From positions 248,001 through 312,000 of the forward strand of contig JAEUTO010000010.1 in NCBI GenBank assembly GCA_016787785.1: a DNA stretch of 64,000 nt, given 5' to 3'. Of the stretch, positions 26,352-31,280 are shown in pieces. The position numbers were made by a program, and so were the translations under genes. Numbering within the stretch: position 1 is the first letter of the stretch; each line of letters opens with the position of its first letter. A model generated the notes under the pieces. That model had not been told where the DNA came from, searched no databases, and saw only the letters and a program-made list of their open reading frames with translations. This stretch comes from Bacteroidia bacterium. GTDB lineage: Bacteria; Bacteroidota; Bacteroidia; B-17B0; Aurantibacillaceae.

Positions 26352-27623
26352 TCAGTTAAGATTTTTGATCTTGTTCTTCAACATTCTTTTTTCAGGGTCA
26401 GATCTGGTTAAACCCAGCGCTTTTTCAAATTCTTCTTTAGCTTCTTTTAATTTATATTGTCTTGCGTAAATTTCTCCCAATAAACTATAATACAAATAGT
26501 ACGAAGCAAGTTTGTTTTTTTCTTTGATGCCATTTAATTCATTTAAAGCTTTTGCCGGACCCTGTGCCTGCAAAACGGCTACCACTTTATTTAGTTCACT
26601 AATGGGCGAGGGAGCAATTTCGCAAAGTAATTCGTAATAGTTTAAAATAAGTTTCCAGTTAGTTGTTTCAAAGCTCTGGGCTGTGCAATGTTCAAATGCA
26701 ATGGCAGCCTCTAAATGATAAGAACTTATGGTTTCTCCTGATGCAGCTATGTTAAAATACTTGCTTCCTTCTTCGATCAATGCGCGGTTCCATTTTGTAC
26801 GATCTTGGTCGGGTAATAAAATTATTTCTCCCTCGCGCGATAAACGGCTATCGCTTCTCGCCGCATGAAGACACATTAATGCCATTAACGCGTTTACCTC
26901 AGGTAGTTGCGTATGATCGTTCTCCGTTAAAAGTTTACAAATTATAACAGCTTCTTCTAAAAGATCTTTACGTATAAGGTCTTCTGAATGCGTTGAATTA
27001 TATCCTTCGTTAAATAATAAATAAATTGCATTTAACACAGCACTGGTGCGAGCTTTTATTTCTTCAACGTTCGGAATAACAAATTCAATTTTATTTTCCC
27101 GAAAAAATTCTTTTGTGCGATACAAACGTTTAGAGATCGTATCTTCAGAAGTTAAAAATGCTTTTGCAATTTCGGCAGTGCTAAAACCGCAAAGGGTTTT
27201 AAGTATAAGTGTAATTTGATTTTCTTCTGATATTTGCGGATGACAGCAGGCAAACATCATTCTTAACTGATCATCTTTTATTAAAGAATCATCTGCCAAC
27301 TGATTAAAAGTTGTTTCAACTGTGTAACCCGAGTTAAGTAGCACTTTGGTTTCATCATCACCAAATAAAACCTGGTTGCGTTGTTTTTTAATAAGGTTAA
27401 GGGCTTTATTTTTTGCAACAATAAATAACCAGGCCTCGGGATTTTGGGGCAGCCCTTTAATTTTCCACTGTTCAAGAGCGCTTATTAAAGTTTCCTGAAC
27501 AACATCTTCGGCCAGTTCTAAATTATGTGCACCAAATATACGAGTAAGCACCGCCACCATTTTACCTGACTGATGTCGGAATAAATGATTAACGGTGCTT
27601 TCTATTTGAAGTGAATCTGACAT
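26352..27623 (-). CDS. ECF42-type RNA polymerase sigma factor with DUF6596/TPR-like C-terminus
   Basis: A 423-aa sigma factor. Region 2 covers about residues 10-80 (LELAEDVVQETLISALEQW). Region 4 covers about 115-170 (FSTAEIAKAFLTSEDTISKRLYR). A long helical C-terminal domain of about 240 residues (AIYLLFNEGYNSTHSEDLIR, shown within limits, and KLKEAKEEFEKALGLT near the end) replaces an anti-sigma factor. This length and the neighbouring DGPF-motif protein are the hallmarks of group ECF42. It is the third gene of the DGPF-VOC-sigma set, and the two upstream genes carry matching promoter elements. Confidence 0.92.
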   Translation of the reverse strand: MSDSLQIESTVNHLFRHQSGKMVAVLTRIFGAHNLELAEDVVQETLISALEQWKIKGLPQNPEAWLFIVAKNKALNLIKKQRNQVLFGDDETKVLLNSGYTVETTFNQLADDSLIKDDQLRMMFACCHPQISEENQITLILKTLCGFSTAEIAKAFLTSEDTISKRLYRTKEFFRENKIEFVIPNVEEIKARTSAVLNAIYLLFNEGYNSTHSEDLIRKDLLEEAVIICKLLTENDHTQLPEVNALMALMCLHAARSDSRLSREGEIILLPDQDRTKWNRALIEEGSKYFNIAASGETISSYHLEAAIAFEHCTAQSFETTNWKLILNYYELLCEIAPSPISELNKVVAVLQAQGPAKALNELNGIKEKNKLASYYLYYSLLGEIYARQYKLKEAKEEFEKALGLTRSDPEKRMLKNKIKNLN

Positions 27624-27675: not shown

Positions 27676-28059
27676 TTAATTGTTTGAATGTAAAGCAACT
27701 TTATTGCCTTCGCTATCAATGAAAAAAGCCATGTGGCCAATTTCAGGACTGATATGCGTTTTAGGCATTGTAATTTTTCCGCCTGCTTTTTCAATTTTGC
27801 CGAGCGCTACATTTAGATCAGGGTTAGCATTTAAATATATTACAGCGCCATCCTGACTAGGTTTGTGCATTGGTCCTTGCACAAGGCCACCAGATACTTT
27901 TCCGTTCATATCTTCTGAGGGGAAAAATGCCATTTTCATTCCCATCATTTCCTGTTCGGTCATTTTAATTGTAAAAACTGATTCGTAGAATTTTTTGGCT
28001 CTGGCCATATCGTTTACAGATATTTCAAACCAGTTTAAGGCGTTTACTTTTTCGTTCAT
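27676..28059 (-). CDS. VOC family (glyoxalase/bleomycin-resistance fold) protein
   Basis: A 127-aa vicinal-oxygen-chelate protein with two beta-alpha-beta-beta-beta units. NWFEISVNDMARAKKFYE opens it and MAFFIDSEGNKVALHSNN closes it. It is of the small stand-alone type often fused or linked to ECF sigma genes; substrate unknown. It has its own ECF-like promoter (28109-28135) and lies 52 bases before the sigma factor gene. A close paralogue is encoded at 39067. Confidence 0.92.
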   Translation of the reverse strand: MNEKVNALNWFEISVNDMARAKKFYESVFTIKMTEQEMMGMKMAFFPSEDMNGKVSGGLVQGPMHKPSQDGAVIYLNANPDLNVALGKIEKAGGKITMPKTHISPEIGHMAFFIDSEGNKVALHSNN

Positions 28060-28108
28060 GTTTTCTTTGTGTTTTTAAGGTTTATATAAATATGTTATCT
28101 ATATTAAA

Positions 28109-28135
28109 GACAAAGTGCCTGTCCATATTTGGACA
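28109..28135 (-). promoter_or_regulatory. ECF42-type promoter upstream of the VOC gene
   Basis: On the minus strand TGTCCA (28130-28135) and TGTC (28109-28112) are 17 bases apart. The same hexamer, tetramer and spacing occur upstream of the DGPF gene, and the flanking bases TGTCCAAATA and TTGTCTTTA are also shared. The likely reader is the ECF42 factor encoded downstream. Confidence 0.7.
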
Positions 28136-28152
28136 AACAATTGAAAATATTT

Positions 28153-28506
28153 TTACATGGCTGTCATAGTGCTTATTTCACGGATCTCCACCGATCCACT
28201 TTCAGTCAAAAGATTAGGGCAACCTTTGCCTATTTCAGTAGCTTCTTCAATGGTATTGGCTTTTAAAAGCACATAGCCACCTAATATTTCTTTACCTTCC
28301 ATAAAAGGCCCGTCGGTTAGCTTTTTAGCAGTTCCCTTCAAAACTTTACCGCCACTTTCTAATGGTTGGGCACCAACTAAGATGCCTTTTTGAGCAATAC
28401 TGCCTATCCAATCCTGCCAGTGCTTCATATGAGCTTGTATTTGTTCTGGCGATAATTGCTTGCGTTCGGCATCTCCACCGCGAAATAAGAGAAGAAATTC
28501 TTTCAT
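28153..28506 (-). CDS. YCII/DGPF-domain protein
   Basis: A 117-aa ferredoxin-fold protein of the YCII family. It carries the eponymous DGPF in LTDGPFMEGKEILGGYVLL, starts MKEFLLLFRGGD and includes HMKHWQDWIGSI. DGPF proteins are the conserved genomic partners of ECF42 sigma factors; their biochemical role is not settled. It is the first gene of the three-gene set, preceded by the same ECF-type promoter motif as the VOC gene. Confidence 0.93.
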   Translation of the reverse strand: MKEFLLLFRGGDAERKQLSPEQIQAHMKHWQDWIGSIAQKGILVGAQPLESGGKVLKGTAKKLTDGPFMEGKEILGGYVLLKANTIEEATEIGKGCPNLLTESGSVEIREISTMTAM

Positions 28507-28539
28507 GCTATTTAATTTTTTTAAGGTTTATATACTAAA

Positions 28540-28566
28540 GACAAACAAGTTTAAGGTATTTGGACA
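28540..28566 (-). promoter_or_regulatory. ECF42-type promoter upstream of the DGPF gene
   Basis: On the minus strand TGTCCA (28561-28566), 17 bases, then TGTC (28540-28543), about 34 bases before the start codon. It is identical in layout to the element upstream of the VOC gene, and both leaders continue with the block TATATAAACCTTAAAAA or close to it. Confidence 0.7.
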
Positions 28567-28732: not shown

Positions 28733-29866
28733 ATGAGATCACTTCTGGTTATAATCCTTTTTGTAATGTGCGCGCCAATATTTGGCCAGGCACCGGTTTA
28801 CGACGATTTGTTTTTTGATGAAGAAGAAGGAAAAACCTATAAACCAATAGGTAAGAATTACGTGTTTTTGCGTTCCAAAAAAGGAACAGGTGGTATGCCA
28901 ACCACAAGTAGTGGCGATTCTATCAAAAAAATGAATATCTCTGATATTATTCTTGTGTTTACTGAAACGAACGAAGCGGCTGCAGAGACCCGCGAAGATG
29001 GTAATAAAGAGCGTTGGGAAAACCTGTTAGCAACCTACCCGCAATTTTTTCAATTCAATACAAATTACAAAAATGTTTGCCAATGTGTAATGGGCGGTGA
29101 TGCAGAAGCATTAAAACAAACGCAGGGTTTTTATGTATACATTAAAAAGGAAGAGCCGAAGCCTGTTGAAATGAAGGTTGAGCCTACTGTTGCAAAGACC
29201 GAAGATAAAAAGGAAACGAAGAAAGAAGAAGCCAAGAAGGAAGAGAAAAAAGAAATCAAAAAAGAGGAAAAGAAAGAGGAGAAAAAGGAAGAGGTAGCTG
29301 TTGAGAAAAAAGAGAAGAAAGTAAAAGAGAAGAAAGAAGAAAAAAAGGAAGAGGAGAAAAAGGAAGAAGAAGAAACATCTACTGCTGTTGAAGGTGCCGA
29401 AGAAACGGTAGCTGTTGAAGTGAAGCCAAAGAGAACGGGGTACAAAAAACCAAAAGTATCTAAAGATAAAAAAGCTTGTCGTCCGCCATGTTACGGTTAT
29501 GGAGACGAAGATCTAAACACATTTTTTAAGGAGCAAATAATACTAAGCAAAAAACAAAGACGTGCTGTTAAAGGCTCTTTATCGATCGTTAAACTTTCAT
29601 TGAATTTTGATGGTTCTGTAAAAAAGGCTTTGGTGAACGGCACTAATGCACAGCTAAACGAATTGGTAACTGTTGCGCTTAAAGGCATGGACCTTTGGAA
29701 TCCCGCAGTAAAAGCAGGTGTTACCGTAAAATCGGAAGTAAAGATCACATTAAAATACGACAAGAGTACAAAGGCCATAAAGCCTTTTGAGATCATGATC
29801 ACACCACGCCCAAATCCAAAGTGTACTGAGTGTAAAACAGATCAGGAAATTTTCGGGAAGGAATAG
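28733..29866 (+). CDS. Exported protein with Lys/Glu-rich linker and TonB-like C-terminal domain
   Basis: A 377-aa protein. A signal peptide (MRSLLVIILFVMCAPIFG, residues 1-18) is followed by a compact N-terminal domain to about 135. Then come about 110 residues made almost entirely of Lys, Glu, Val and Ala (about 137-245). The C-terminal domain (about 275-365) has the pattern LSLNFDGSVKKALVNG ... LWNPAVKAGVTVKSEVKITL. That pattern resembles the TonB C-terminal fold (growth of WxPA.xxGxxV). The charged linker could span the periplasm. It is not a canonical TonB, since it has a cleavable leader rather than an anchor. It ends in a strong bidirectional terminator. Confidence 0.75.
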   Translation: MRSLLVIILFVMCAPIFGQAPVYDDLFFDEEEGKTYKPIGKNYVFLRSKKGTGGMPTTSSGDSIKKMNISDIILVFTETNEAAAETREDGNKERWENLLATYPQFFQFNTNYKNVCQCVMGGDAEALKQTQGFYVYIKKEEPKPVEMKVEPTVAKTEDKKETKKEEAKKEEKKEIKKEEKKEEKKEEVAVEKKEKKVKEKKEEKKEEEKKEEEETSTAVEGAEETVAVEVKPKRTGYKKPKVSKDKKACRPPCYGYGDEDLNTFFKEQIILSKKQRRAVKGSLSIVKLSLNFDGSVKKALVNGTNAQLNELVTVALKGMDLWNPAVKAGVTVKSEVKITLKYDKSTKAIKPFEIMITPRPNPKCTECKTDQEIFGKE

Positions 29867-29907: not shown

Positions 29908-30411
29908 TTATTTTTTAAATGAGGGTAATAACTCGTCTAAATTTTCCATGGCCATTAATAAACCTTCTTTAAAGCCCATTGCAATGGTTGCTTCTAATTG
30001 TGCAAGATCGGGATAGGTGATCTTTAATTCAACAAGCGTGTTGTTACCTTTAGGTGTAAACGATGCATCCCATTTTGATTGCGGCATTTCTTTATTAATG
30101 TTGCCGTTTGCATCTGCGAAGGCATCGTGCCCCGTAAATTTTTTTTGAGTTACAATGTTATTATAAGTTGCAACCGCCCAATGTTCTTCGCCGTTTGGGC
30201 CAACCATGGCGTAATGCCATGTTCCACCTTCTTTAAATTCTAGGCTTTTTGTTCTTGCTTTCCATGGTTTTGGTGCCCACCATTTATCAAGGATCTCACT
30301 TTTTGTATATGCATCCCATACTAAAGGAAGTCCTGCCTCGAATTCTCTTTTTACTGTAATTGTTTTATTTTCCTTGTCTACAGAAAAATCAACTGCTAAG
30401 TTTTTGTTCAT
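29908..30411 (-). CDS. SRPBCC domain protein (AHSA1-like), second copy
   Basis: A 167-aa START-like/AHSA1-type hydrophobic-pocket protein. FEAGLPLVWDAYTKSEILDKWW and the conserved WWAPKPW motif are visible, as is KEGGTWHYAMVGPNG. The frame is open to 30465, but the ATG at 30411 (MNKNLAVDFSVDK) matches the start of its paralogue. It is the third gene of an ArsR-SRPBCC-SRPBCC set; such pairs are common and probably respond to or bind small hydrophobic molecules. Confidence 0.9.
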   Translation of the reverse strand: MNKNLAVDFSVDKENKTITVKREFEAGLPLVWDAYTKSEILDKWWAPKPWKARTKSLEFKEGGTWHYAMVGPNGEEHWAVATYNNIVTQKKFTGHDAFADANGNINKEMPQSKWDASFTPKGNNTLVELKITYPDLAQLEATIAMGFKEGLLMAMENLDELLPSFKK

Positions 30412-30445
30412 TTTTGTTCTTTTAATGGTTAATAGTATGTTTTTT

Positions 30446-30949
30446 TTATTTTTTTGATAGCGCAACCAGTACTTCGTCTAAATAGTTCAAGGTTGCTTTA
30501 AATCCTTCGGTGAAGCCCATTTCTATCATTTTCTCCATGCGTTCAAGAGAATCATTTTTAATAGTGATGCTCACTTTTGTTTTTTCATTTGCTTCGCTAA
30601 AGGTGAAATCCCAATCAGAGCCAGGCAAGAATAGATTTTCATCTTTGTCGGCAAAGGCGCTAAAGTATTTGAAATTGGTTTTTGGGCTAATGGATGTGTA
30701 TTTCTGGATCTGCCAACCCATCTCCTGTCCGTCGGCACTAACCATCGCATAAAATCTTTGTCCACCTATCGTAAAGTTCATATATTTTGTTTTTGACAGA
30801 TAGGGTTTAGGCGCCCACCATTGGTCCAAAATTTCTTGTTTGGTAAACGCGTCCCACACAAGTGAAAGCTCTGCATCAAATTCTTTTGTTACAAGTACCG
30901 TTTTGGATCCTTTGTCAACAGTAAAATCAAATAATAAGTTGTTTTTCAT
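30446..30949 (-). CDS. SRPBCC domain protein (AHSA1-like), first copy
   Basis: A 167-aa protein, paralogous to the next gene in the operon: same length, same opening ([20 protein letters not shown]) and the same [12 protein letters not shown] core. The start ATG overlaps the ArsR-type regulator's stop by four bases, which fixes it and shows coupling. It is presumably regulated by that repressor. Confidence 0.9.
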
Positions 30950-31266
30950 TTTTTATTTTTTTTCATGGTTAATAATACTTCGTCAAGTTGGTTAAAGCGT
31001 GTTTCCCAGATCTTTTTATATTGTTCGAGCCACTTATCAATTTCTTCCATTTTTGCGCCATTTAGCTGATAGTAAATTTCTCTTCCTTCAGGTTTTTGTT
31101 TTAATAGTTTGCACTCTGTTAATATCTGCAGGTGCTTTGAAACGGCCTGCCTGCTGGTTTTAAAATGTTCGGCAATTGCGTTTGGTGTCATTGCCTGCAT
31201 GGCAATTAGCAATATAATGGCCCTGCGGGTAGGGTCGGCAATACCTTGAAAAACGTCTCTTCTCAT
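30946..31266 (-). CDS. ArsR-type HTH repressor, SRPBCC-associated
   Basis: A 106-aa winged-helix regulator of the metal-independent ArsR subgroup that pairs with AHSA1 genes. It starts [20 protein letters not shown], and the recognition helix region is [13 protein letters not shown]-like ([13 protein letters not shown]). It has no metal-binding Cys pair. The frame extends upstream to 31314, but that segment contains the promoter and operators, so the ATG at 31266 is the start. It overlaps the downstream SRPBCC gene by four bases. Confidence 0.92.
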
Positions 31267-31280
31267 ATATCTAATTTTAA

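Follow-up and report, generated by a model that had tools for sequence, protein, structure and literature searches.

Two copies of the element TGTCCA-N17-TGTC, referred to here as P1 and P2, are located on the minus strand of the window (the whole stretch of 64,000 nucleotides from a Bacteroidia bacterium that we analyzed) and are very probably promoters of the ECF42-type sigma factor whose gene belongs to the same set and lies 0.5 to 0.9 kb downstream. We base this reading on the sequence and on its comparison with related loci. Moreover, a survey of ECF42 loci suggests that three residues of the sigma factor (165 for base 5 of the -35 element, 164 for base 6, and 76 for base 1 of the -10 element) form an address that is likely to set the ECF42 promoter, such that one substitution would re-address it.

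P1 occupies positions 28540..28566 of the minus strand (-35 TGTCCA at 28566-28561, N17, -10 TGTC at 28543-28540) and is assigned from its motif and its conservation in relatives as the putative promoter of the DGPF gene. P2, assigned on the same grounds as the putative promoter of the VOC and sigma genes, occupies positions 28109..28135 (-35 TGTCCA at 28135-28130, N17, -10 TGTC at 28112-28109), also on the minus strand. The two are identical over the extended form TGTCCAAATA-N12-TTGTCTTTA, and on that strand the -10 TGTC is directly followed by TTTAGTATA in P1 and by TTTAATATA in P2. The -10 box of P1 ends 33 nt ahead of the DGPF start codon (28506), and that of P2 ends 49 nt ahead of the VOC start codon (28059); P2 itself starts 17 nt past the DGPF stop codon. 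Judging from the last base of the SMc01149 sequence given in Table 1 of PMC6180224, transcription from P1 would start near 28531; the start at P2 would lie near 28100. The two leaders have TTTA in common, plus ATATAAACCTTAAAAA ahead of ATG. The first-pass annotation, made from the sequence of the window, had pointed out both the matched elements before the DGPF and VOC genes and the matching leaders, and we found both as described, though the A-rich part of the leader match adds little because an A-rich stretch ahead of ATG is usual in Bacteroidota. Note that a 10-pair inverted repeat (28116-28139, loop AATA) followed by T-rich sequence lies over the -35 element of P2 and could attenuate read-through from P1.

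The genes that follow P1 are all on the minus strand. They encode a DGPF/YCII protein of 117 aa (28153..28506; PF03795, E 1.4e-11), a VOC (glyoxalase-fold) protein of 127 aa (27676..28059; PF00903, E 9.2e-9), and the ECF42-type sigma factor of 423 aa (26352..27623), in which sigma2 and sigma4 domains (PF04542, E 9.4e-10; PF08281, E 9.2e-7) are joined to a C-terminal extension that matches DUF6596 (E 2.1e-33) and is the sole match to DUF6596 in the genome. An AlphaFold2 model of the sigma factor, computed from 30 window and relative sequences, has a mean pLDDT of 86 and is helical through the extension (186-420); Pfam finds no TPR family there, and the first Foldseek matches in the PDB are mostly TPR proteins, none of which reaches an E value of 0.001. 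No anti-sigma gene was found among the immediate neighbours, which are the VOC and DGPF genes upstream and a convergent gene for a LuxR-type response regulator downstream. The presence of a DGPF/YCII gene beside the sigma gene is shared, as judged by profile, by 76 of 81 loci. The domains and neighbours thus agree with the earlier description of a sigma factor that has a C-terminal helical domain and no adjacent anti-sigma factor. There is no motif directly before the sigma gene, which is therefore likely to be read from P2 and P1. On the other side of P1, a divergent gene (28733-29866) encodes a protein with a long Lys/Glu-rich stretch and no Pfam family.

Comparison of the regions upstream of DGPF and VOC genes in relatives indicated that the motif is conserved. 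The relatives were the best 80 of 205 related loci, with titles that mostly name Bacteroidetes or subgroups; a few records are labelled Fibrobacteres, Chlorobiales, or only "bacterium". When all tetramer pairs 14 to 23 bases apart were counted with no motif assumed in the regions before 93 DGPF genes, TGTC-N19-CGTC and the same pair shifted by one base came out joint first, with 38 of 93 each. The corresponding regions of 17 VOC genes have TGTC-N19-TGTC among their frequent pairs (7 of 17), behind an A-rich top pair (9 of 17). Across 81 loci, TGTCC-N18-[CT]GTC occurs 77 times on the strand of the sigma gene versus twice on the other (58 of 81 loci), and other spacings from 8 to 29 gave 0 to 12 occurrences per strand. 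The element TGTCC-(AAAT/GGAT)-TT-[C/T]GT[C/T]-AT lies ahead of a gene start in 74 of the 81 loci, a count that admits CGTT as the -10 element and a spacing one base longer or shorter. These 74 loci contain 95 sites, 87 with the main spacing, 6 one base longer, and 2 one base shorter, and the median distance from the -10 element to the start codon is 41.5 nt for DGPF/VOC sites. Seven of 81 loci have no element near any gene start; one of these runs into a contig end (L077) and two carry one-base variants (L035 and L052). With regard to variation in the element, CGTT replaces CGTC as the -10 element in L034, L053, L063, L064, L067, L069, L070, and L072, and TGTCC-N19-CGTC, with the spacing longer by one, is seen in L020, L026, L041, L043, L048, and L051. 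L060, with a sigma2 domain very similar to that of a CGTT locus, carries CGTC, and no sigma column explains the difference. Twenty-seven first genes are other than DGPF or VOC; the 20 of these that were scanned comprise DinB_2 (7), AHSA1/SRPBCC-type (9), SnoaL (1), and DUF1761 (1) genes and two with no Pfam family.

In the window, TGTCCA-N17-TGTC is found twice versus 0.04 times expected, and two matches were reached in 0 of 100 shuffles. P1 and P2 are the only sites in the 4.6-Mb genome that match TGTCC-N18-TGTCWWTA (3 in the reversed control), and they are among three genome-wide sites for TGTCSA-N17-TGTC (9 in the reversed control). Over the genome as a whole, the bare core TGTCC-N18-TGTC shows no enrichment, with 9 sites compared with 25 in the reversed control; the signal is therefore a local one that rests on position and conservation. 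We considered the seven other core sites as a distant regulon. Five of them fall within open frames (244 to 789 codons), and the core sites L003 and L190 have no frame of at least 50 codons starting within 200 nt behind them. Given that these sites have no suitable gene, we claim no distant target, and the regulon in the source genome is probably just the DGPF-VOC-sigma locus. The genome has another YCII gene (C10, L006), with a product that looks secreted as judged by eye, and the core pattern was not found near it. An ArsR-type regulator gene and two AHSA1 genes (29908-31269) lie near the locus; AHSA1 genes are linked to the motif in relatives and not here, and this operon was rejected as a target on finding no site, allowing up to one mismatch, within the 500 nt before it. 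A scan of the locus for the sigma-70 consensus found 9 matches versus 8.6 expected.

Of the alternatives, the one that survives best, while still improbable, is that P1 is the sole working promoter and that P2 is a relic or belongs to a terminator lying between the DGPF and VOC genes. The short distance of P2 from the DGPF stop codon and its overlap with the 10-pair stem and the T-rich stretch would fit such a role, as would the fact that 53 of the 74 motif-bearing loci have a single site. Against it, both motifs are retained before the DGPF and VOC genes in the six relatives with the highest listed identities (72 to 90%; L007, L008, L009, L010, L011, and L044), with spacers that differ, and among these six the length of the stem that covers P2 ranges between 4 and 9 pairs. 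Moreover, terminator-like sites in the region show no excess (2 versus 2.1 in shuffles).

That P1 and P2 are both read by the ECF42-type sigma factor is a proposal that residue-to-base covariation supports. We assembled 182 ECF42 loci (155 from Bacteroidota searches and 27 others), to which a draw across the phylum contributed 74 (75 matches in 63 of 395 genomes, one of them the window's own), and called promoters upstream of DGPF/VOC genes with bases 5 and 6 of the -35 element and base 1 of the -10 element left free. A promoter was called in 120 of 182 loci, compared with 9 of 216 regions in the reversed control. For residue 165 (Lys165 in the sigma4 recognition helix of the window's factor, codon 27129..27131, minus strand) and base 5 of the -35 element, the calls comprise Lys-C 104, Gln-G 13, Ala-G 2, and Arg-C 1. 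For residue 164 (Ser164 in the same helix, codon 27132..27134, minus strand) and base 6, Lys is found with C in 22 of 22 calls and Glu with G in 11 of 11. The other residues at 164 are looser: Gln-G 8 and Gln-T 2; Ser-A 30, Ser-T 8, and Ser-G 3; Asn-A 8 and Asn-T 2; Thr-A 9 and Thr-G 1; Ala-A 8, with C, G, and T once each; Gly-A 2 and Gly-G 1; Tyr-A 1; and Arg-C 1. For residue 76 (Asn76 in a sigma2 helix, codon 27396..27398, minus strand) and base 1 of the -10 element, Asp accompanies C (89 calls, with Asp-A 1) and Asn accompanies T (28 calls), with Gly-C and a gap with T once each. In an information scan of columns 5 to 189, residues 165, 164, and 76 were the most informative columns for their respective bases; no sigma column stood out for base 4 (C/T) or base 3 (T/A) of the -10 element. 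CGTC is the commonest -10 element (68 of 120 calls), and TGTC is the form that goes with Asn76 sigma factors like that of the window. The address would accordingly read as follows: Lys165 for C and Gln or Ala165 for G; Lys164 for C, Glu164 for G, and small or polar residues at 164 mostly for A; Asp76 for C and Asn76 for T.

Four genomes have two paralogues with calls. In G099 the paralogues are 65% identical, one having Asp76 with CGTC and the other Asn76 with TGTT; in G139 Asn164 goes with TGTCCA and Lys164 with TGTCCC; in G208 Asn76 goes with TGTC, and Asp76 together with Glu164 goes with TGTCCG and CGAT; and in G254 base 6 is T with Asn164 and A with Tyr164. Note that these tables leave out the 62 of 182 loci that were uncalled directly upstream of DGPF/VOC (48 with Lys165, 12 of the 25 with Gln165, one with Ala, and one with Arg), and that L132 is without residue 76. 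Reduced at 80% identity, the set keeps 102 called loci and shows the same pattern; L034 and L177 are almost identical. L090 (Asp76) was called with AGTT, and an alternative calling rule gives CGAC there. Three of the seven Gln165 sigma factors from the Bacteroidota searches were called, all with TGTCG (L105, L107, and L176). A looser scan of the twelve uncalled Gln165 loci and three other loci found TGTCG in L096, L097, L101, L181, and L185 and no fitting TGTCG or TGTCC site in L089, L104, L108, L180, and L183; L095 (Arg165) has TGTCG at a spacing of 19. The same scan found TGTCC-N19-TGTT before an 83-codon frame in L106 and TGTCC-N19-TGAT within the sigma gene in L110, two sites that we take for chance and that, if real, contradict the code.

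TGTCGA near -35 is the consensus for actinobacterial ECF42 factors, and TGTCCA at both sites in the window does not match the TGTCG-type -35 element of ECF42. The first-pass annotation had regarded TGTCCA as a Bacteroidota version that differs at one base. The difference in base stands; its attribution to the phylum does not, because base 5 follows residue 165 (Lys with C, Gln or Ala with G), and TGTCC is thus no Bacteroidota trait. Since the base follows the residue within ECF42, we regard TGTCCA as a variant in specificity and do not count the base among the features that define the family.

We also placed these changes on a maximum-likelihood tree built without columns 165, 164, and 76. There are 7 changes of residue 76 (Asp/Asn) and 7 of the -10 base (C/T), and they coincide branch for branch; of 481 residue splits, this one fits best. 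Residue 165 shows 3 changes: in two of them the base changes as well, and in the other Lys gives way to Arg while C is kept. Lys164 has 4 origins, each with C at base 6, which changes to or from C 6 times in all. For Glu/Gln164 with G the agreement is weak: the base changes on the same branch for only 3 of the 8 changes in the residue, and the top column of the scan is not 164. Pair tests restricted to supported branches did not by themselves reach significance for residue 76 (4 of 4 pairs concordant, p 0.125), for residue 165 (2 pairs, 1.5 concordant on average), or for residue 164 (Lys, 2 pairs; Glu/Gln, 4 pairs, 2.9 concordant). Single substitutions may have re-addressed sigma factor and operon together several times, also between paralogues, as in G099.

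These observations bear on a second alternative, namely that TGTC-N19-TGTC is no sigma promoter but a direct repeat that serves a DNA-binding regulator as its operator, which we regard as very unlikely. In the window both boxes are alike, their 23-bp distance is near two helical turns, and an inverted repeat covers the first box of P2; however, elsewhere the second box is mostly CGTC, or else CGTT or CGAC, and so there is no repeat, and the orientation of the element is fixed, its distance to the start codon is narrow, and its bases track sigma residues on helices that contact DNA. It is scarcely credible that the motif match reflects functionless common descent or chance, since although much upstream sequence is common to the nearest relatives, the spacer is variable at positions 10 to 21, where no base exceeds 53 of 87, while T is kept outside the search pattern at 9 (72 of 87), 23 (73 of 87), and 29 (80 of 87), motif-bearing loci span sigma identities of 45 to 90% with different first genes, and the reversed-sequence control gave so few calls. 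Because residues 165, 164, and 76 covary with promoter bases, we take the ECF42-type sigma factor to be what reads P1 and P2.

For other phyla, 27 plasmid loci were examined, 16 of them with a promoter call; these were hand-picked among the matches listed (60 of 249 and 60 of 138 records) and are not a random sample. Loci of alpha- and gammaproteobacteria have TGTCG with CGTC or CGAC, three cyanobacteria have TGTCG-N18-CGAC, and Actinobacteria have TGTCG with CGAC, the spacing being 17 to 19 in the loci that showed a site (L090, L091, and L100). Four Burkholderiales loci, in which residue 165 is Lys, have TGTCC-N18-CGTC; C at base 5 of the -35 element is therefore not specific to Bacteroidota. 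L101 (Sinorhizobium sp. C101) contains two of the promoters found at RpoE10-induced genes in S. meliloti, with one base different in each, as judged by eye. Predictions for two further loci were examined after the residue-base table had been made, and both agree with the code: L186 (Nonomuraea, Lys165, uncalled) has, by eye, TGTCC-N18-CGTG before a YciI gene, and in L181 (Fuscovulum; Asn76, Ser164, Gln165) TGTCGA-N17-TGTC lies ahead of the gene located two positions upstream of the sigma gene. On many plasmids of Klebsiella, E. coli, and Acinetobacter, the match to the sigma factor is confined to its C-terminal part (from residue 241 or 250 as far as 369), for which some records give the annotation DUF6596; these are possibly truncated ECF42 genes. 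In L185, on a P. putida plasmid, the ECF42 sigma gene lies between two IS6100 copies with part of sul1 on the stretch and with no annotated YCII gene near the sigma gene.

We compared the three residues with those of B. subtilis SigW and M. tuberculosis sigma-H, which belong to other ECF groups with -35 elements of the GAAAC and GGAA type. By HMMER alignment, Ser164 and Lys165 correspond to K170 and T171 of SigW and to M181 and S182 of sigma-H, and Asn76 corresponds to N92 of sigma-H. With the G of TGTC set on G-35, base 6 becomes -31. SigW K170 contacts the template G at -31, opposite C-31 (PMC6713349), a position equivalent to base 6, and C is the base found there in the loci with Lys164; in sigma-H, M181 has an effect at -31 and -30 (PMC6411747). 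SigW T171 contacts A-34 (PMC6713349), and in the adopted register T171 and sigma-H S182 contact the base two places upstream of base 5, which the longer Lys165 might reach. N92 of sigma-H contacts the -11 pair, adjoining the base that varies here. Thus, the residues aligned with 165 and 76 lie in the same helices, but contact neighbouring bases and not the covarying ones.

We propose that the sigma4 recognition helix (Ser164, Lys165, and Arg169) would read TGTCCA and that the sigma2 helix with Asn72 and Asn76 would read TGTC. P1 would drive the DGPF gene and, via read-through, the remaining genes, and P2 would drive the VOC and sigma genes, giving positive feedback. The helical C-terminal extension is a likely gate for a signal, perhaps through binding a partner protein. 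Transcription starts at P1 and P2, feedback, and gating are all inferred.

ECF42 factors are widespread, and we know of no signal for them. In the literature searched, which had the main ECF42 and ECF classification papers outside its scope, we found no Bacteroidota ECF42 promoter. A promoter that can be read from sequence would yield candidate regulons genome by genome. The motif is also found before genes for DinB-fold (thiol-transferase-like), AHSA1/SRPBCC, SnoaL, and DUF1761 proteins, and the motif-linked genes appear to point to the handling of reactive small molecules. If the address is true, one substitution should shift a sigma factor to a new, orthogonal promoter; the residue-base pairs make promoter choice testable by single substitutions and could give orthogonal switches for Bacteroidota.

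The reading of P1 and P2 as ECF42-type promoters, already put forward in the first-pass annotation, gains from their conservation in relatives and from their match to TGTCGG-N17-CGTC, which Table 1 of PMC6180224 gives for genes that the ECF42 factor RpoE10 of S. meliloti induces. According to published accounts, RpoE10 and S. venezuelae Sven_0747, Sven_4377, and Sven_7131 share with the window's factor a YCII gene beside the sigma gene, a long C-terminal extension, and no identifiable anti-sigma factor; RpoE10 also induces genes with glyoxalase-like domains, and a glyoxalase-fold (VOC) gene lies behind P2 here. By the same accounts, the window differs in having C at base 5 of the -35 element (with Lys165) where the RpoE10 type has G, and TGTC (with Asn76) where that type has CGTC. 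Furthermore, overexpressed RpoE10 is described there as not raising SMc01151, the first gene of its own operon, whereas P2 would drive the sigma gene in the window. Reviews (PMC8999054 and PMC9023288) report that ECF42 factors depend for their activity on the C-terminal extension and, probably, on a partner protein, and suggest that the YCII protein takes part. A general ECF residue-to-base code has been published (Todor et al. 2020, as described in PMC8103513) and likewise matches sigma2 and sigma4 residues to promoter bases; unlike that code, as described there, the residue pairs reported here concern one family, with its own operon as internal standard.
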